Below, piece by piece: positions 7,303 to 23,807 of a stretch of DNA of 38,191 nt. The notes beneath the pieces are model-generated. The model had not been told where the DNA came from. It was given only the letters and a program-made list of their open reading frames with translations, and made no database searches. Source of the DNA: Candidatus Moraniibacteriota bacterium (GTDB lineage: Bacteria > Patescibacteriota > Minisyncoccia > Moranbacterales > UBA1568). The position numbers were made by a program, and so were the translations under genes. The stretch spans positions 1 through 38,191 of the forward strand of contig JAAXTX010000008.1 in assembly GCA_013336285.1 (NCBI GenBank), written 5' to 3'. Each line of letters opens with the position of its first letter. Position 1 is the first letter of the stretch.

Positions 7303-7440
7303 TTATTGGAAAATTTCTTGAAACCGTCATCATTTTCGAACCGGCGTCAGGACCATGCGATCCCGCCACCCTACTCCGTCCCATCGTTACGGTTCCGACG
7401 ATCATCAGTCCGTTTCGTTCCTCTTTCCGCGCTTTTCGGG

Positions 7441-7446
7441 TACAAT
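7441..7446 (+). promoter_or_regulatory. Probable -10 element of the tandem PilB gene
   Basis: TACAAT about 60 nt before the ATG at 7508. The -35 region (TTCCTC, 17 nt upstream) is weak. Confidence 0.4.
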
Positions 7447-7507
7447 AGGGTGCATAGACGGCCGCTATGCTTTCGCATGGTCCGATCAAGAACTAAACAC
7501 CCACACT

Positions 7508-10500
7508 ATGGTACAGGTCGTGAATTCGACCGCCTCGGATTGGCGGGATAAGAAACTTCAGAAAACCGAGGATACGCTCAAAGGCCTCGCGGGAACCTCG
7601 AAGGAACAGGCGGCCGCGAGACTTGCAGCCGAGGTCGGATTACCGTATTTCGATCTCCATATCTTTCCCGCCAGTCAGGAGGACGTGACGCTCGTTTCAG
7701 AAGAAAACGCGAAGAAACATCAGATCGCCGTTTTTGAAAAAAGCGGGGGGAAGATCCGCGTCGGATTCGCAGACCCTAAAAACTCCGCTGCGGCGGATTT
7801 CGTGGAATCGCTTGCGGACGATCGGGGTTGGCAGGTGGAGGCATACGTCGTCTCCGTTCCCTCCCTTGAAAAAGTCTGGCAGATCTACGACGAGGCACCG
7901 CTTATCAAGGATTTCGATCTTCTTCGGGTCTCGCTGTCCGGGGAGGAACTCAAGCGCTTCGAGGAAAACTTCAGCGCTATCATGAAACTTAAGAATGCCT
8001 CGAAGGTATCCATCTCCGAGACTATCGAGATCATTCTTGCCGGAGCCAACAAACTTCAGGCGAGTGATATCCATATCGAACCCGAAAAGGAAGGTGTCCG
8101 TCTCCGTTACCGTATCGATGGCGTGCTTCAGGATATCGGGTCGATCTCGGCGGACATCTATCGGCTCACGCTCTCCCGGGTAAAAATGCTTTCTCGCATG
8201 AAGATAAACATCCGTGACCGGGCACAGGACGGGCATTTCGGTATTTCGCTCGACGGGAAACTGATCGACCTTCGCGTCAACATCATCCCGGGAAATCACG
8301 GGGAGAGCATCAACATGCGTATCCTCAATAACGACGATGTCCTCTATGACATGACGAAGCTCGGCATTCAGGGAGCGACCTACGACAAGATCAAGCAAGA
8401 GACGGAAAAGCCACACGGCATGATCATCAATACCGGTCCGACCGGCGCCGGAAAGACGACGACCCTCTACAGCATATTGCGTACGGTGAACAGTCCTGAC
8501 AAAAAAATCATCACCGTCGAGGACCCTATCGAGTATCAGATCCAGGGTATCGTGCAGACCGAGGTCTCCAAGGGCCGCGAGTACGGATTCGCGACGGCGC
8601 TTCGCGCGATTGTCCGCCAGGACCCCGACGTGATCCTTATCGGTGAAATCCGCGATGATGAGACGGCGGAAATCGCCGTGAACGCGGCTATGACCGGACA
8701 TCTGGTCCTCTCCACCGTCCATGCCAACACCGCTCCGGGTGCCATTCCGCGTCTTATCGAACTCGGAGCGAAGCCATCCGCTCTCGCGTCGGCACTGAAC
8801 GTCGTCATCGGGCAGCGTCTCGTCCGAAAACTGTGCGAGAAGTGCAAGGAATCCTATCTGCCGGCCGAAGAGACGATAGATTCGCTTCGGGAAATACTCT
8901 CGATCGTTTCTCCGAAAGCGAAGGTCGAGATACCCCGTGAAATCACCGAGCTCTGGAATCCGAAGGGGTGTCCCTCCTGCGGAATGACCGGCTATCACGG
9001 CCGGATAGGAATTTATGAGTCTTTCACCATTTCCAAGGATATCGAGAAAGCCATCGTCGAACTGGGAACGGAACGTGAAATCATGAGAGTGGCCATAGAA
9101 GAAGGCATGGTGACCATGGTCCAAGACGGCATTCTCAAGGCAATTCATGGAACGACCTCCCTCGAGGAAGTGTGGCGCGCGACTGGACAGAAGAACGCGC
9201 TTCGGGAAATCTATGCAGAACTCATGCCGAGCATCCTCTCACGTACCTCTTTGCTTTCCAAGGAGACATTCGAGGCCGCGCGTGCGCATCTTACGACTCT
9301 CGAGGAATTCGGGCGATACGCCAAAACCCTTGGGGACAGCGACGTTTTACGCTCCATTTTCGCGGCCGCTCTCCTGCTTAAGGCCGGCGATATCCATCTC
9401 GAACCGGCGGATCAGGAGGTCCTGGTCAGGTTGCGCATCGACGGAATACTCCAAACCATAGCCGCGCTTCCGAAAGTCACGTATCCTCAGATACTCGGTG
9501 AGATTAAGCTCTGGAGCGGTCTCAAGTCCGGCCAACGCTCGGGTGTCGTGGACGGACGTTTCTCACTCACAGTGAAAGAACCTTACGAGCATATCCCGGC
9601 AGGCACCACCGACTTCCGTCTCTCCATAATCCTTGGGGGATTCGGGGAAACCGCCGTAATGCGTATTCTCAACAACTCACTCACGACACTCTCGCTCGAG
9701 TCTCTCTCTTTCCGACCCGAGAACCTTGTACGGATTCGCGAGGGTTTGAAGAGAGCGAACGGCATCATGATCAACACGGGCCCGACAGGCTCGGGAAAGA
9801 CGACGACCCTGTACAGCATGCTGTCGAAACTCAACAAGCCGGAAGTGAAAATCATCACTGTCGAGGACCCGATCGAATACCGTCTATCGGGAATCCTCCA
9901 GACGCAGATGAATCCGGAAGAGGGCTATACGTTTTCCGAAGCGCTACGCGCATTACTCCGTCAGAATCCCGACATCCTCATGATCGGCGAAATACGGGAT
10001 GAGGATACGGCCAAGATAGCATTGCAATCGGCGGAGACCGGTCATCTCGTGCTGTCCACCATCCATGCCAACAGCGCCACGGGCGTCATTCCCAGATTCC
10101 TCGGCATGGGAGCTTCCCCGGACGAGATCGCGAATACGGTCATCTGCCTTATCTCGCAGCGTCTCGTGCGAAAACTGTGCGAACATTGCCGACAAGAGGA
10201 TGTACCGACCGCTGAAGATTTGGATCTCATCGACCGCGTATTGAAAAAGGTTCCGGAGAATATCGGCGGCCAGGCAAGGACGGAAAAAAAGATTTGGAAG
10301 ACGACAGGATGCGAACGGTGCAACGGAACCGGATATACCGGACAGATCGTTCTCTCGGAAGTCCTCTCGATGGATCCTGATATCGAGGAACTCATCACAA
10401 CGGGAGCACTCATGTCGCAAATCGAGGAGACTGCGATAAAAAACGGTATGTTGACACTCGCGGGAGACGGCGTCCTGGCCGTACTCGAGGGCCGGACGAC

Positions 10501-10534
10501 TCTCGACGAGATCCGTCGCGTAACAAATGAGTGA
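7508..10534 (+). CDS. Tandem PilB/GspE-type secretion ATPase (two complete ATPase modules in one chain)
   Basis: 1008 aa, nearly twice the usual PilB length of about 570. An N-terminal T2SSE_N-like domain (about residues 1-140) is followed by two full GspE-type modules. Module 1 has GPTGAGKTTT from residue 310, Walker B ILIGEIRDDET, a His box with STVHANT, and a four-Cys zinc motif (CEKC ... CPSC). Module 2 has GPTGSGKTTT from residue 758, ILMIGEIRDEDT, STIHANS and CEHC ... CERC. Both keep all key residues, so both may be active. The second module lacks its own N1 domain. PilB drives type IV pilus extension as a hexamer; here three chains could form a six-module ring (inference). No pilC, pilT or pilin genes adjoin it. 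The track ORF starts earlier (7355), but the ATG at 7508 fits the -10 at 7441. It ends before a bidirectional terminator. Confidence 0.9.
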   Translation: MVQVVNSTASDWRDKKLQKTEDTLKGLAGTSKEQAAARLAAEVGLPYFDLHIFPASQEDVTLVSEENAKKHQIAVFEKSGGKIRVGFADPKNSAAADFVESLADDRGWQVEAYVVSVPSLEKVWQIYDEAPLIKDFDLLRVSLSGEELKRFEENFSAIMKLKNASKVSISETIEIILAGANKLQASDIHIEPEKEGVRLRYRIDGVLQDIGSISADIYRLTLSRVKMLSRMKINIRDRAQDGHFGISLDGKLIDLRVNIIPGNHGESINMRILNNDDVLYDMTKLGIQGATYDKIKQETEKPHGMIINTGPTGAGKTTTLYSILRTVNSPDKKIITVEDPIEYQIQGIVQTEVSKGREYGFATALRAIVRQDPDVILIGEIRDDETAEIAVNAAMTGHLVLSTVHANTAPGAIPRLIELGAKPSALASALNVVIGQRLVRKLCEKCKESYLPAEETIDSLREILSIVSPKAKVEIPREITELWNPKGCPSCGMTGYHGRIGIYESFTISKDIEKAIVELGTEREIMRVAIEEGMVTMVQDGILKAIHGTTSLEEVWRATGQKNALREIYAELMPSILSRTSLLSKETFEAARAHLTTLEEFGRYAKTLGDSDVLRSIFAAALLLKAGDIHLEPADQEVLVRLRIDGILQTIAALPKVTYPQILGEIKLWSGLKSGQRSGVVDGRFSLTVKEPYEHIPAGTTDFRLSIILGGFGETAVMRILNNSLTTLSLESLSFRPENLVRIREGLKRANGIMINTGPTGSGKTTTLYSMLSKLNKPEVKIITVEDPIEYRLSGILQTQMNPEEGYTFSEALRALLRQNPDILMIGEIRDEDTAKIALQSAETGHLVLSTIHANSATGVIPRFLGMGASPDEIANTVICLISQRLVRKLCEHCRQEDVPTAEDLDLIDRVLKKVPENIGGQARTEKKIWKTTGCERCNGTGYTGQIVLSEVLSMDPDIEELITTGALMSQIEETAIKNGMLTLAGDGVLAVLEGRTTLDEIRRVTNE

Positions 10535-14190: not shown

Positions 14191-14850
14191 ATGGAACACT
14201 ATCATCCGATTATCCGGTTCGTCGTCGAAGGCGGCGTCCCAATTCAGACGGCGGTCCTGCTTCTCATGCTCCCCATAGTAGCGACATTGGTCGCTTTTTT
14301 CCGGCAGATCGTCGGTATCAAGGCTTTCGGCATCTACACCCCATCGATCGTGACGTTCGCGCTTATCGCGTTCGATCCGAACGGGCTGAAATATGGCATT
14401 GCCATATTCGCGAGCGTCATCTTCGTCGGGATGATAACCAGGTTCATTCTTCGCAGATTCCGACTCCTCTATCTGCCGCGAGTGGCCATAACCCTGTCAG
14501 TCATTTCCTTTTCCATACTTTGTCTCCTTGTTTTCGGGGGTTACTATCATCGGACGGGGCTCGCGGCCGCCCCGATCTTTCCGATCCTGATCATGATTAC
14601 CATCTCGGAAAAATTCGTCGCTGCACAGATTGAAAAAGGGACAAAAACCGCTCTTATACTGGCAGCTGAGACGCTTGGCATCTCCCTTATCGGATATGCG
14701 CTCCTCTCATGGTCCGCCTTCATCTTGTTTCTTGTCGAATATCCCTGGACCATCCTTTTCACGATCCCCTTGAATGTCTTCATCGGAAAATGGACCGGCC
14801 TCCGCCTTTCCGAATACGTCCGGTTCGCGCGCATCATCCGGCAGAAGTAG
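14191..14850 (+). CDS. 7TM membrane protein of the inactive-transglutaminase-associated family
   Basis: 219 aa, almost entirely hydrophobic, with about six to seven membrane segments. Segments such as FRQIVGIKAFGIYTPSI, RVAITLSVISFSI and ISEKFVAAQIEKGTKTA resemble the 7TM domain that in proteobacteria is usually fused to an inactive periplasmic transglutaminase-like domain. Here only the membrane part is present. In proteobacteria this protein is encoded with a RimK-like ATP-grasp ligase and a retropepsin-like protease. The same partners follow here directly (4-base gap), which supports the assignment. It probably anchors the amide-ligating and peptide-cutting enzymes at the membrane (inference). 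Confidence 0.75.
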   Translation: MEHYHPIIRFVVEGGVPIQTAVLLLMLPIVATLVAFFRQIVGIKAFGIYTPSIVTFALIAFDPNGLKYGIAIFASVIFVGMITRFILRRFRLLYLPRVAITLSVISFSILCLLVFGGYYHRTGLAAAPIFPILIMITISEKFVAAQIEKGTKTALILAAETLGISLIGYALLSWSAFILFLVEYPWTILFTIPLNVFIGKWTGLRLSEYVRFARIIRQK

Positions 14851-14854
14851 GATT

Positions 14855-16252
14855 ATGTTCGAAGCGCTCAGGAAAAGCAGCGGGATTCTCGGGATGAACG
14901 CCCGAAATCTCGAATATATACGCCCTCTCAATAGGAAGCGTGGTCGGAATATCGCCGACGATAAGCTTCTTTCGAAACGTGTTCTCAGGAAAGCGGGCCT
15001 TCCTGTCCCGAAACTCATCGCGACCATTCGAAACAACGAGTCTCTTGAACAGTTCGATTGGAGCCTATTGCCAGGCGGATTTGCGCTCAAACCGAACCGC
15101 GGATTCGGCGGCGAAGGCATTCTCGTCGTCTATGGTAGAAAAAAGAATCGGGATGACGCCTGGGTAAAGGCGGATGGCTCACTCGTCACTATCGAGGACC
15201 TACGCGCTCATATTCGGAATATCCTCGATGGTTCGTTTTCGCTCACGAATTCGCCGGATATCGCTTTTTTCGAGGAACGACTTACCTTACTCAAATCTTT
15301 CAAGCCGTATTCCTACAAAGGCATTCCCGACCTCCGTATCATCGTCTGTAACCGTATTCCGGTCATGGCGATGCTTCGTCTCCCCACGAGGCAATCAAGC
15401 GGGAAGGCGAATCTACAACAGGGAGCTATCGGGGTCGGCATCGACCTCGCCACCGGAACGACCACGACTGCCGTTATCGGAAAGTCCCATATCATAGAAT
15501 ATGTGCCGAAAACACGACTCGCGCTTTCAGGTATCCGTATCCCTTATTGGAAGGAAATCCTCCGAATAGCGATCGAATCGCAAAATGTTTCCGGTCTCGG
15601 GTATCTCGGCGCGGATATCGCGATCGACCGCGAAAGGGGTCCTGTTTTACTTGAACTCAACGCCCGTCCTGGTCTATCGATCCAGATTGCCAACCTCGAC
15701 GGTCTCAAAGGCCGTCTCGATCGCGTAAAAGATCTCCGTGTCAAAACGACGGAACGAGGCATGACGCTCGGCATGAATCTTTTCGGCGGAGAAATCGAGG
15801 AGGAACTCGAGGAGATTTCAGGTAAACGGATCATCGGGCCCGTAACCAAGACGAAACTCGTCGGCAGGGATGGGAAAACGGAGATCGAAGTGGAAGCCAA
15901 AATCGATACCGGCGCCGATTCCACCTCCATCGACATCGATCTCGCACGCAGACTCGGTTTCAATGACACGGTAGACGGATATCTCAAGGCCGCGAAGGAT
16001 TGGCAGGAGATTTCCGAACTCTCGGGCGGTGAACGATGGAAGATGTTCGAACATATTCCCGGGGTTGTCGCGACCATCCCTGTCAAATCGGCAAGCGGCA
16101 CCACGTACAGGGTCGCGATCAGGATCGAGATCGTCGTGGACGGACTCCGTGTTCCGGCGCGCGCGACACTGATCGACCGTTCCAATCTCGAATATCCCGT
16201 CATCATCGGTCGGAAGAATCTTTCGCGATTTTTGGTGGACGTGACGAAATGA
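14855..16252 (+). CDS. ATP-grasp alpha-L-glutamate ligase-like protein fused to a retropepsin-like protease
   Basis: 465 aa in two parts. Residues 1 to about 310 are a RimK-related ATP-grasp: NRKRGRNIADDKLLSKRVL, KPNRGFGGEGI as the ATP-binding loop, an FEERL strand, DLRIIVCNR, and the metal-binding LLELNARPGLSIQ. Residues about 330-465 match the RimB-like ('ATP-dependent zinc protease') fold, a single-chain retropepsin relative, with IDTGADSTSI holding probable catalytic Asp351 and the C-terminal PVIIGRKNL. In most bacteria these are separate proteins. The fusion implies one enzyme that adds amino acids through amide bonds and cuts or trims such bonds, but the substrate is unknown. The ATG at 14855 is used; the track ORF starts inside the upstream gene. 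Confidence 0.85.
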   Translation: MFEALRKSSGILGMNARNLEYIRPLNRKRGRNIADDKLLSKRVLRKAGLPVPKLIATIRNNESLEQFDWSLLPGGFALKPNRGFGGEGILVVYGRKKNRDDAWVKADGSLVTIEDLRAHIRNILDGSFSLTNSPDIAFFEERLTLLKSFKPYSYKGIPDLRIIVCNRIPVMAMLRLPTRQSSGKANLQQGAIGVGIDLATGTTTTAVIGKSHIIEYVPKTRLALSGIRIPYWKEILRIAIESQNVSGLGYLGADIAIDRERGPVLLELNARPGLSIQIANLDGLKGRLDRVKDLRVKTTERGMTLGMNLFGGEIEEELEEISGKRIIGPVTKTKLVGRDGKTEIEVEAKIDTGADSTSIDIDLARRLGFNDTVDGYLKAAKDWQEISELSGGERWKMFEHIPGVVATIPVKSASGTTYRVAIRIEIVVDGLRVPARATLIDRSNLEYPVIIGRKNLSRFLVDVTK

Positions 16253-16271
16253 ATTATTAGTACGAATCGGC

Positions 16272-17234
16272 ATGCCGAAAACACTCGTCATCATTTATCA
16301 TAAGGACGACTGGGACGCCGAAATACCTTTTGAGCGGTCTCCCGACACCCGGGCGGCATTCGAGTCGTTTTATGATTTCGCGCGAAAGAAGGATGTCGAG
16401 GTTTTCCGAGCCGACATCCGTTGGTTCGATACGGCGAGATCCTGTTTCAAAAAGGCGTGGACATTCCGGAACGACACCTGGATCCGCCAGGAAGGCCCTA
16501 TCATTCCGGACGCTATCTTCGACAAGATGGCAGGAAAAAGAGACTACGAGTTCTTCGTATTGAAAACGTCGATCTCAAACCGTATTCAGATACTCAATAC
16601 CCCTTTGTTTCGTACGATGTTCGATAACAAACTTTCGCAATACCTGGCATTCCGTGAGTTCATGCCACAATCTTTGCTTGCCGAAAACGATGAGCATCTG
16701 AAAGAAGCCATCGCCCGGATTCGAACGGGCAAGGTTGTAATAAAGCAGATATACGGATCCGGAGGGAAAGAAGTCGTTATCGGAGATAAGACTCGTCTTA
16801 TCGAGACCGGCGTTCCCCTCTCGTTCCCGGTCCTCGTACAGGAATTCATTGGCACGTCCGGGATTCCCGGTTTTTCCGAGTCAGAAGAAGTTTCCGACCT
16901 CCGTATTGTCTATGTCGGTAAAGTACCTATTTACGCCTTGTCGCGTATCGCAAAAAGCGGGTCCCTCTTTACGAATTTTCACCAGGGAGCAACGGCCCGT
17001 ATCGTCCCAATGGAACGCATACCTGCCGACTGCCTCAGGATGGCCGATGCGATTCGAAAGACGCTTGATTTGTTTGAAAATACGAATTATTCTCTCGATT
17101 TCATGTTCTCGACGGATGGAACACCGTTTTTCGTAGAAATGAACACGACTCCCGGATTCGATTTGCTTCACATTATGGGGACTTCCGAATTAAAAGAGTG
17201 CTATTTCGAGTCCTTTCTTCGACTATTACGTTGA
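16272..17234 (+). CDS. Second RimK-like ATP-grasp ligase
   Basis: 320 aa. The N-terminal part (about 1-110) is a Rossmann-like pre-ATP-grasp domain (TLVIIYHKDDWDAEIPF). The ATP-grasp core follows: RTMFDNKLSQYLAFREFMPQ, VVIKQIYGSGGKEVVI as the ATP loop, LVQEFIGTSGIPG, SDLRIVYVGK, and the catalytic end FFVEMNTTPGFDLL. This matches RimK/glutathione-synthetase-like amide ligases that join a carboxylate to an amino group. It lies 19 bases after the ligase-protease fusion, and no other gene intervenes before the PBP promoter. Two different ATP-grasp enzymes in one cluster suggest two ligation steps, or two substrates, in one pathway. Confidence 0.85.
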   Translation: MPKTLVIIYHKDDWDAEIPFERSPDTRAAFESFYDFARKKDVEVFRADIRWFDTARSCFKKAWTFRNDTWIRQEGPIIPDAIFDKMAGKRDYEFFVLKTSISNRIQILNTPLFRTMFDNKLSQYLAFREFMPQSLLAENDEHLKEAIARIRTGKVVIKQIYGSGGKEVVIGDKTRLIETGVPLSFPVLVQEFIGTSGIPGFSESEEVSDLRIVYVGKVPIYALSRIAKSGSLFTNFHQGATARIVPMERIPADCLRMADAIRKTLDLFENTNYSLDFMFSTDGTPFFVEMNTTPGFDLLHIMGTSELKECYFESFLRLLR

Positions 17235-20666: not shown

Positions 20667-20963
20667 TTATTCCGAGACTTTTATTTCCTTTACGACGACG
20701 TTCCCGAGCTCCTGATTGATCTTTTCCGAAAGGATCTCACGGGTGATCCAGAGCTCATTCGCCCACAGTGGGCTCTGACATGAAAAAAACAGCTTACCCC
20801 CCTTCCAGTACCGAGGAACGATATTTTCACGTCCTCGGACGCCATAGAGGCCTAATACGACCTTCTCTGCGAGGAAGAAGATGGTTTTTTCATCCGCATC
20901 GACTCGTTTCGGTCGCACCTGGACCCGGGACTTCGATTTCATCATCTCACTGATCGATTTCAT
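20667..20963 (-). CDS. DciA-like (DUF721) protein
   Basis: 98 aa from the ATG at 20963 (MKSISEMMKSKSRV); the longer track ORF overlaps the end of dnaN. The segment GGKLFFSCQSPLWANELWITREILSEKINQELG is the conserved DUF721 core, with the alternating strand and the WANEL helix. DciA helps load the replicative helicase DnaB in bacteria that lack DnaC. Its place 22 bases after dnaN and two genes after dnaA fits that role. It is short and lacks the N-terminal KH-like length seen in some DciA proteins, so helicase loading is likely but not proven. Confidence 0.75.
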   Translation of the reverse strand: MKSISEMMKSKSRVQVRPKRVDADEKTIFFLAEKVVLGLYGVRGRENIVPRYWKGGKLFFSCQSPLWANELWITREILSEKINQELGNVVVKEIKVSE

Positions 20964-20985
20964 GACATTGATCGGTTTATCTGTC

Positions 20986-22137
20986 TTATTTCCGTATCGG
21001 CATCGCGATATAGATGAACGAGCCTTTACCGCTCCCATCCTCATCCGCGGAAATGATCCCGGCTGGAGATGATTTCGAATTCATTTTCAATATGACATCC
21101 TTTGAATCAAGAACATTGAGTCCGTCCAATAGGTATCGCGGATTAAAAAGGACGTTCAGAGATTCGTTACCGGTAATATCACCGGACAAGACCGTTTTAT
21201 TCTCGCCGACATCCGATGATCGCGACGCTACTACCAATTCCCCTTTCTCAGGTACGAGCGAAAGTAACATTTCACCATTCATCTGTGAAGCGAACACGCT
21301 CGCCATACGGACGGCACGGAGCAACTCCTCTCGTGAGACTTTGGCGGAATATGTGAATTCTTTCGGAAGAATCTGCTTATAGTCGGGATATTTTCCGTTA
21401 ATGATCCTGGAAACAATCAATAATCCGTCTATCTCGAAAAATACCTGATTTTCTTCGAAAGAAACCTTGACCTCTTTCGTTTCGGGAGAAACGGCACGAA
21501 TTATCTCTTGAAGGGTTATCAGTGGAAGAATAATGGAAGAGTGATTCTCCATGAATTCATCGTATCCGTCACTACGAAAAGATTTCGGGAGATCCAGGAT
21601 CTGCTCCGCGAGACGAAAACTGTCCGTTGCGGCTATATGGACCTCAGAGTTGAAAAATAGAAAATTGACACCGGTCAGTTCAACCCGACTTTCATTCACT
21701 GAAACACAAGGTAATAACCGCTGTAAAGAATCCTTCAACTCATTCGCGGGAAAAGAAAAGAGGAAGTCACCCTTCTGTTGGGGGATGATCGGGAAATCTT
21801 TCACGTCGAACCCCCGCATCCGCATGGAATGTCCTCCGCTTTCCAATGCTATGGAATTACCCTCTATAGACAATGCGACGACATCACTCTCGGCGAGATT
21901 CTGTATGAAACTGTTCAATATCTTCGCCGGCGCAACTATATCGCCGGTTCCCTCGATTTTCGCATTCACGAATGCCGTCACTCCGATTTCAAGATTGGTA
22001 GCGGATAATTTGATTTTACCTTTTTCGGTTTGAAGGAGAAAATTCGAAAGGATCGGAAGACTTGTCTGTTTCCCAGTCACCCTCTCTAGGAAGGAAAAGG
22101 CTTTGGAAAGATTCTCACGCGTACATGTTATCCTCAT
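20986..22137 (-). CDS. dnaN: DNA polymerase III beta subunit (sliding clamp)
   Basis: 383 aa, the normal length for three repeated clamp domains. Typical segments are the N-terminal LPILSNFLLQT, LTGVNFLFFNSEVHIAATDSFRLAE in the middle domain, IINGKYPDYKQILP in the third, and the C-terminal FIYIAMPIR peptide end. It forms the dimeric ring that holds DNA polymerase on DNA. The gene follows dnaA on the same strand, with 230 bases of AT-rich DNA between them that carry DnaA-box-like sites. Confidence 0.97.
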   Translation of the reverse strand: MRITCTRENLSKAFSFLERVTGKQTSLPILSNFLLQTEKGKIKLSATNLEIGVTAFVNAKIEGTGDIVAPAKILNSFIQNLAESDVVALSIEGNSIALESGGHSMRMRGFDVKDFPIIPQQKGDFLFSFPANELKDSLQRLLPCVSVNESRVELTGVNFLFFNSEVHIAATDSFRLAEQILDLPKSFRSDGYDEFMENHSSIILPLITLQEIIRAVSPETKEVKVSFEENQVFFEIDGLLIVSRIINGKYPDYKQILPKEFTYSAKVSREELLRAVRMASVFASQMNGEMLLSLVPEKGELVVASRSSDVGENKTVLSGDITGNESLNVLFNPRYLLDGLNVLDSKDVILKMNSKSSPAGIISADEDGSGKGSFIYIAMPIRK

Positions 22138-22367
22138 AAGATATTCTTTAGTATATATATAAGATTATTATCATTATTATAGTGGTGGAAAAGTGGACAA
22201 CCTGGAATAATGCCTTAGTCTGGACGTAATTTACGGAAGGAACTGTTCACGGTGTTATACATTTCTATCACGGTATGAGCGGTTGTGTCTCTAATATGAT
22301 CATCTTTACCATTTTTATGCTGAGTTTTCCACTTGATCCGGATGTATTATCGCACGTTATCAACGAG
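22138..22367. other. Candidate origin segment between dnaN and dnaA
   Basis: A very AT-rich stretch (about 22140-22185, with TATATATATAAG and ATTATTATCATTATTATAG) suits a DNA-unwinding element. DnaA-box-like 9-mers are TTATACATT (about 22255), TTATCAACG (about 22358), and TTATACACC at 22368, which includes the dnaA stop codon. They are variants of TTATCCACA. The dnaN promoter is probably here too, but many TATAAT-like sequences make it ambiguous. Confidence 0.5.
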
Positions 22368-23807
22368 TTATACACCATTTTGTCTGTATAAGACATCTTT
22401 TAAATCGGAAATCTCACCTTTCAAACGCAAATTTATCTCGATATCCTTTCCGATTTTCTCGAAAGCATGCAATGCTGTCGTATGATCACGGCCACCGAAG
22501 AAATCGCCGATCGCGGAAAATGGCATGTTCAATTCACTTCTCATCAGATACATGGCGATCTGCCGGGGGTGAGAAATACCCTTCTTTCTGCCTTTTTTTT
22601 TCAAATCCTCATCTGTGACTGAATACTTATTCAGAATCGCTGATAATATGTCTTCCGTTTTGATTTCCTTTTTACCCTGTATGATAATCTGAGCGAGAGC
22701 TTTCTCAACGAGTTTCAGATCGGGGGGGAGTTTGTAAAAATCAGCGTATGCTGAAATCCTATTGAGAGCACCTTCCAATTCACGAACATTTTGTGTTATA
22801 TGTTCGGCAATGAATCGAATCACCTCACTTTCTATATCGATACCTTTTTCCCGTACTTTCCGCTCAAGAATAGCCGTTCTTGTTTCAAGATTCGGCTGAC
22901 TGATATCCACGATCATTCCGCCTTCAAAACGGGACCGGAGGCGGTCTTCGAGTGTCTGGATCGACTTCGGAGGTCTGTCACTCGAGATGACTATTTGCTT
23001 ATTAAGCTGATATAAGCCATTGAATATATGAAAGAACTCATTTTGAGTTTTTTCACGTCCTGAAAGAAACTGGATGTCATCAATGATAAGAAGGTCCATC
23101 TGTTGATAATATTCCTTGAATTTATCGATAGTCTGGTTTTTGATGGAGTCTACAAGCTCGCTGGTGAATCGTTCCGATGTGATATATTTTATCGTGTTTT
23201 TAGGGTCCCTACGTTTTACCTCGTTTCCCAATGCCTGAAGAAGATGGGTCTTTCCGAGGCCGACGCCACCATAAATGAAAAGTGGGTTATATACACGGGC
23301 GAGATTTTGAGATATCGCGTAACAGGCCGCATGTGCCAATTCGTTATTTTCTGCCACGACAAAGCTCTCAAATTGGTAACGGTCGTTCAGATTGGACTCA
23401 TGGAATAAGGCAGTCGTTTTTTGTGGTGTGTTTACCGCGATGGTATCTATTCTTCCGGAAAATGTACTCTTATGCGTTGGGTGAGTCACTTGTGCGATTG
23501 TCGTTTCCGATTGTTTCGCTTGGGCAGCATCGAGATTTCTCCGTCCCGGAGGAACTGGCCCCGAGATGACACATCTCATACCTTTTATACTTTCGTCAAA
23601 GCTCCTCAAACTTTGTAGTATAGTGTGATTATACTTATTTTCAAGCCATTCTTTCGCAAATCCATTCGGAACGCTTATGGTAACGATACCATCTTCGATC
23701 GCGATGATTCCCGTATTCTGAAACCATGTCACAAAATTAGCTTTCGATATGGAAAGCTCTATCTGTCCAAGTGATGATTTCCACAATTCTTGCTGATCCA
23801 TAGGCAT
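22368..23807 (-). CDS. dnaA: Chromosomal replication initiator DnaA
   Basis: 479 aa with all four domains. Domain I starts MPMDQQELWKSSLGQIE; a short linker follows; domain III has Walker A GGVGLGKTHL, Walker B LLIIDDIQFLSG and the SSDRPP sensor; domain IV carries the DNA-binding signature GGRDHTTALHAFEKI. It opens the origin as an ATP-bound filament. On the minus strand a TATAAT box (23821-23816) lies only about 8 bases before the start, so the mRNA would be nearly leaderless (or start at the second ATG, 23801). The stop codon lies inside a DnaA-box-like sequence. It is divergent from rpmH, the classic origin layout. Confidence 0.97.
   Translation of the reverse strand: MPMDQQELWKSSLGQIELSISKANFVTWFQNTGIIAIEDGIVTISVPNGFAKEWLENKYNHTILQSLRSFDESIKGMRCVISGPVPPGRRNLDAAQAKQSETTIAQVTHPTHKSTFSGRIDTIAVNTPQKTTALFHESNLNDRYQFESFVVAENNELAHAACYAISQNLARVYNPLFIYGGVGLGKTHLLQALGNEVKRRDPKNTIKYITSERFTSELVDSIKNQTIDKFKEYYQQMDLLIIDDIQFLSGREKTQNEFFHIFNGLYQLNKQIVISSDRPPKSIQTLEDRLRSRFEGGMIVDISQPNLETRTAILERKVREKGIDIESEVIRFIAEHITQNVRELEGALNRISAYADFYKLPPDLKLVEKALAQIIIQGKKEIKTEDILSAILNKYSVTDEDLKKKGRKKGISHPRQIAMYLMRSELNMPFSAIGDFFGGRDHTTALHAFEKIGKDIEINLRLKGEISDLKDVLYRQNGV

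Follow-up and report, generated by a model that had tools for sequence, protein, structure and literature searches.

A ligase–retropepsin fusion of Patescibacteria and its candidate role in writing and erasing glutamate-rich peptide tails

Can one polypeptide both build an amide-linked tail and cut it back? The question is raised by a locus at positions 14191 to 17234 of contig JAAXTX010000008.1 (assembly GCA_013336285.1), from a Candidatus Moraniibacteriota bacterium that belongs to the Patescibacteria and has a genome of 1.35 Mb; the whole stretch analysed, 38,191 nucleotides (nt) of this contig, is referred to here as the window. Three adjacent genes encode a seven-transmembrane (7TM) protein, a fusion of an ATP-grasp ligase with a retropepsin-type protease, and a second ATP-grasp ligase. 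An earlier reading of the DNA (hereafter the original prediction) related them to a proteobacterial cluster of 7TM, ligase and protease genes, and this kinship is borne out: the closest known system is the Pseudomonas operon rloABC (2025), the name that the cluster now carries. In P. aeruginosa, rloABC encodes the secreted retropepsin RloA, the inactive transglutaminase-7TM protein RloB and the ATP-grasp protein RloC, which according to genetic data act in one process (PMC12239564). We consider it rather probable that the locus is a Patescibacteria variant of this Rlo system and serves as a membrane-tethered writer and eraser of a glutamate-rich peptide tail.

The middle gene is a true ligase–retropepsin fusion, as had been proposed. 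Although its longest open reading frame (ORF) opens at 14774, translation probably begins with the ATG at 14855, which comes four nt after the stop of the 7TM gene; read from this ATG the protein has 465 amino acids (aa; 14855..16252, + strand), and the number Asp351 originally assigned to the catalytic aspartate of its DTGA motif (computed position 15905..15916, +) is exact. An ATP-grasp domain (residues ~10-297) is joined by a linker (298-325) to the retropepsin domain (~326-465), and an AlphaFold2 model of the whole fusion has a predicted local distance difference test score (pLDDT) of 83. The ligase part matches PF14397 (E=5.6e-70) and TIGR02291 (E=1.6e-87), and to the latter family, of which we take RloC to be a member, the fusion scores 293 bits, slightly below the equivalog cut-off of 314 bits. 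The best PDB match of residues 10-296 is ArgX with LysW and glutamate (Z 18.7, 217 residues, 2.9 Å), followed by the RimK poly-alpha-L-glutamate synthetase (Z 17.4, 214 residues, 3.2 Å), with other ATP-grasp ligases close behind, and the ATP-grasp site residues D254, E267 and N269 are invariant in the fusion alignment. Glutamate would be the residue added, although the fold alone is no proof of this.

Three lines of evidence identify the C-terminus as a retropepsin, namely Pfam, a profile that matches RloA crystal structures, and a structure model of good confidence; together they uphold the claim on which the original prediction had staked itself. Its match to PF05618 is weak (7e-7) yet above the Pfam cut-off, and that to NCBIfam RloA3 (1e-8) lies below the equivalog cut-off; a profile built from 21 fusions and searched against the PDB finds RloA2 (9g59, 1.3e-6), RloA (9g58, 1.9e-6) and also Legionella 2pma. 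Because ATP-grasp and related enzymes occupied the whole list of the full-length fold search, the retropepsin domain was modelled alone. This isolated model (pLDDT 88) has RloA2, Lpg0085 and RloA as its first matches, with the foamy-virus protease and Ddi1 also among the first rows, and on a second look all 50 matches listed were retropepsin-like proteins. The fusion has no hydrophobic segments and the sequence of its retropepsin domain no cysteine; judged by its sequence, the protease is cytoplasmic.

Could such a protein be a product of chance or of misassembly? Either origin is ruled out, since the same fused frame recurs across order and phylum. Within the order of the window the fusion was matched in 53 of 54 genomes, mostly over its full length, and the fused open frame is also present in many other Patescibacteria families. 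Across an even sample of 286 genomes of the phylum, to which the survey was confined, the 7TM family was found in 86, with the ligase adjoining in nearly all of these, and 101 loci were read in detail. The 7TM gene lay directly 5' of the ligase gene (gap of at most 30 nt, or overlapping) in 82 of 99 loci, while every ligase among the 101 carried a C-terminal extension. As both the 7TM–ligase pairing and this extension span the phylum, the fusion is an old and widespread Patescibacteria architecture. Of the cluster of three genes originally described, the 7TM gene and the fusion are thus the fixed part; the third position changes, so that the trio is no fixed unit. The sample also holds stand-alone PF05618 proteins of 135-187 aa (in G094, G228, G190, G031, G278 and others), some of them encoded near an ATP-grasp gene, and genomes with these short proteins and genomes with the 7TM gene did not overlap.

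The 7TM protein of the window (219 aa, 14191..14850, +) is of the 7TM_transglut type (PF14402, 3.7e-23) and has no ectodomain: it aligns with NCBIfam RloB (NF052267) only at positions 312-507 of 508, the C-terminal 7TM half. Hydropathy indicates six to seven segments, with a cationic C-terminus; seven helices and a basic C-terminus suggest that the protein is likely oriented with its N-terminus outside and its basic C-terminus in the cytoplasm. A scan of 21 Patescibacteria 7TM proteins gave no match to the inactive transglutaminase domain (PF14400), and six of them have PKD in its place; it is the long 7TM proteins that carry this PKD ectodomain, in many cases preceded by a signal peptide. The idea that the locus is a version reduced by transglutaminase loss therefore found no support among these relatives. 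A search for the domain elsewhere in the genome, which the original prediction had called for, likewise gave no PF14400 match, but control genomes were equally without one, so that this result does not prove absence. In the RloB-like genes with PKD domains (L055, L053, L068 and L060), the stretch between PKD and 7TM parts has no clear Pfam match.

Whether the retropepsin is built to cut can be judged from its residues. Among the 73 loci with an intact DTG or DSG motif and no fused peptidase of the MATCAP family (PF08014; QEGLA, TIGR02421), Asp351 and Gly353 are conserved in all, Arg419 (16109..16111, +) in 70 and Arg442 (16178..16180, +) in 62, the last being invariant in alignment A1. The two arginines correspond to RloA Arg114 and Arg137, an equivalence that rests on alignment to 9g58 and on spacing: they stand 23 residues apart in both proteins, and their distance from the aspartate is off by two, in the flap region. 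Replacement of Arg114 or Arg137 in RloA reduced polyglutamate cleavage most and failed to rescue the Pseudomonas mutant (PMC12239564). In loci that have lost the DTG motif or carry a fused MATCAP domain both positions are replaced, and arginine is not among the common residues at position 419.

The motif is intact in 75 of the 101 loci and lost in 26, and in every one of these 26 a MATCAP peptidase is present, fused behind the dead retropepsin in 23 and encoded by the next gene in three. Only five of the 75 intact loci have a fused (L095, L100) or adjoining (three loci) copy; the one adjoining at L055 lacks the EEGLA motif and is perhaps more distantly related. Most fused copies carry HExxxH and (E/Q)EGLA. 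On the ligase-domain tree, DTG loss falls in at least three places (a clade of 23 rows that includes L095 and L100; the pair L120/L132; and L051/L069/L077), and the starred branches force four label changes. The Fisher value for the exchange (2e-19) ignores relatedness and is descriptive only; a phylogeny-corrected pair test had too few independent pairs to reach significance. The association of DTG loss with MATCAP is thus a strong pattern, not proof of dependence. Polyglutamate is cleaved by RimB (PMC11957791) and by RloA (PMC12239564), and in animals the MATCAP/TMCP enzymes remove it and trim tubulin tails (PMC10499314); that two unrelated peptidase folds with polyglutamate-removing members occupy one position points to an acidic tail as the product. 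At the window locus itself MATCAP is absent, and none was found elsewhere in its genome by a search that had no positive control.

The inactivated copies also bear on another role for the domain. The dead retropepsin is retained in all 26 DTG-lost loci though it cannot cut, and Gly452 is kept in 27 of the 28 loci with a fused MATCAP domain or a lost motif, which hints at a further function apart from cutting, for instance stimulation of the ligase; RimK likewise makes poly-glutamate under stimulation by RimB (PMC11957791). Taken to its end, this would make the retropepsin mainly a docking or allosteric module that shapes the ligase product, with cutting secondary. We hold that to be unlikely, as a pure scaffold would not need the aspartate, glycine and arginine conserved in nearly all intact loci, and as loss of the motif coincides with gain of another peptidase. 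Two further observations concern peptidases at these loci. One group (L116-L119, L123, L124, L127-L130) has mostly DTGI or DTGV retropepsins with Arg at the position of Ser358, several ATP-grasp genes downstream in most members and, in several, a separate MATCAP gene somewhat further away on the opposite strand. In Moranbacteria, a zincin-like protein of 610-640 aa (HExTH/HEIIH-like) without a Pfam match is encoded between the fusion and a penicillin-binding protein (PBP) gene at L034:8857-10752 and also at L032, L044, L046 and L048; it does not occur in the window.

What, then, does the second ligase contribute? The window copy (320 aa, 16272..17234, +) is RimK/glutathione-synthetase-like (PF08443, 1.5e-12). 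Further same-strand ATP-grasp genes lie downstream in 48 of the 101 loci, immediately next in 43, and they accompany 47 of the 75 intact retropepsins as against one of the 26 that have lost the motif. A directional control in the neighbour clustering placed this ATP-grasp family downstream 97 times and upstream three times, and in two relatives (L088 and L102, the latter recognised weakly, by inspection) a second ATP-grasp is fused behind the intact retropepsin. The slot holds unlike subfamilies even among close relatives, including cyanophycin-synthetase-like enzymes in L032-L034. The downstream bias, the fusions and this variety mark the third gene as an exchangeable part of the system, and the first two of these sustain the view that a second ligase belongs to it.

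At its maximum the slot contains five tandem ATP-grasp genes directly behind the fusion (L059:200-5418). Such an array, like the cyanophycin-synthetase-like members, would suit a graspetide- or cyanophycin-like pathway in which serial ATP-grasps modify a precursor, maturation falls to the peptidase and the resulting small peptide or metabolite leaves the cell by way of the 7TM protein; graspetide loci with metallopeptidases have been reported from Patescibacteria (PMC8939145). The window operon, however, has no room for a precursor gene: its gaps measure 4 nt (7TM gene to fusion), 19 nt (fusion to second ATP-grasp) and 59 nt, which would place any precursor elsewhere. The main ligase belongs with TIGR02291, and its occurrence in almost every genome of the order speaks for a housekeeping function more than for secondary metabolism. 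We judge this pathway improbable.

The genes run in the order ruvC, 7TM gene, fusion, second ATP-grasp and class A PBP gene, the three between ruvC and the PBP gene being on the same strand; the PBP neighbour originally pointed out is indeed there. Of the loci read, 22 (11 from outside Moranbacteria) have a class A PBP gene next along the same strand, and in Pseudomonas loss of the proteases alters cell shape and antibiotic sensitivity (PMC12239564), as might be expected if the acceptor were a cell-wall precursor or envelope polymer and the PBP acted in the same pathway. Most loci, however, lack a nearby PBP gene, and RuvC and YebC neighbours are even commoner, so that the linkage may be ancestral gene order; an acceptor of this kind seems to us a poor bet. 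Elsewhere in the window, dnaN and dnaA (20667-23807, -) lie close to the locus, and the replication origin region is probably inside the window. A single ORF of 1059 aa (7355-10534, +) has two sets of Walker A motifs, GPTGAGKTTT and GPTGSGKTTT, and apparently comprises a tandem pair of complete ATPase modules of the type II secretion/type IV pilus kind, an uncommon arrangement among PilB/GspE proteins.

Comparison with known systems shows what is shared and what is new. With rloABC the locus shares three protein families in neighbouring genes, the 7TM half of RloB, and a retropepsin with DTGA and both polyglutamate-binding arginines. It differs in that protease and ligase are one cytoplasmic protein without signal peptide or disulphide, whereas RloA is secreted, and in that the Patescibacteria version lacks the transglutaminase domain, has extra ATP-grasp genes and is phylum-wide. 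A cytoplasmic ATP-grasp ligase combined with a polyglutamate-cutting retropepsin also recalls RimB/RimK and the Desulfotalea fusion RimBK, whose protease is active (PMC11957791); in RimBK, however, the protease is N-terminal, whereas the relatives examined, like the window fusion, have the ligase first, and here the ligase is of the TIGR02291 type and the 7TM protein a constant partner. ArgX and LysX, which add glutamate or aminoadipate to the LysW carrier, resemble the ligase domain (ArgX being its top structural match) but differ in family and gene context. In the papers found by our literature search, which did not reach the 2009 amidoligase review (Iyer), neither the Patescibacteria fusion nor the MATCAP exchange is described.

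How might a membrane-tethered writer and eraser work? At the cytoplasmic membrane, the 7TM protein would serve as a tether for the acceptor or the product, and perhaps also move it. The ligase domain of the fusion would add amino acids, most likely L-glutamate, to a carboxylate of the acceptor, as RimK and ArgX do; the retropepsin, presumably active only when two fusion molecules pair, would trim or remove the glutamate-rich chain in the cytoplasm and might in addition boost the activity of the ligase, in the way that RimB acts on RimK. Writing and trimming in one complex would set chain length in a reversible manner, and the second ATP-grasp could add another residue or cap the chain with it. 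That one protein both makes and cuts the tail is thus a predicted activity, for which the conservation of catalytic and polyglutamate-binding residues, together with the peptidase swap, gives good indirect support. A role in the envelope or in osmotic balance is suggested by analogy with Pseudomonas (PMC12239564) and, weakly, with Photobacterium, in which low salinity strongly induces rimK together with a QEGLA gene and gshB that have consecutive locus tags (PMC10308900).

Several points weigh against this proposal. The residue specificity of this ligase clade is only predicted, and the topology is unlike that of Pseudomonas with its secreted RloA, so that function may differ. In a published assay Desulfotalea RimBK cleaved polyglutamate yet failed to glutamylate RpsF (PMC11957791), and the exchange of peptidases can be traced to some three to four independent events. 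No obvious acceptor was found in the genome: its RpsF ends in LEEVLDI, without an obvious acceptor tail as in RimK/RimB systems, and the single encoded run of seven glutamates lies inside DnaX, with no suitable polyglutamate protein. The window ORFs include no acidic tail under the rule used, and a genome-encoded acidic substrate was accordingly rejected.

In Pseudomonas, the rlo operon influences biofilm, tolerance of osmotic stress and sensitivity to antibiotics; the natural fusion places both steps in one soluble polypeptide that is open to expression and assay. The MATCAP swap ties two unrelated peptidase folds with glutamate-chain-removing members to one ligase, so that the predicted acidic tail can be put to the test in vitro, and the physical joining of bacterial MATCAP-family peptidases to ATP-grasp ligases bears on the origin of the tubulin-tail enzymes. 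More tentatively, and as a possibility rather than an expectation, the conserved writer, the exchangeable eraser (retropepsin or MATCAP) and one to five lineage-variable ATP-grasp writers may together constitute a membrane-linked peptide-tail code. If so, it would parallel, in bacteria, the tubulin tail code, which likewise relies on ATP-grasp ligases and on trimming peptidases of the MATCAP and other families.

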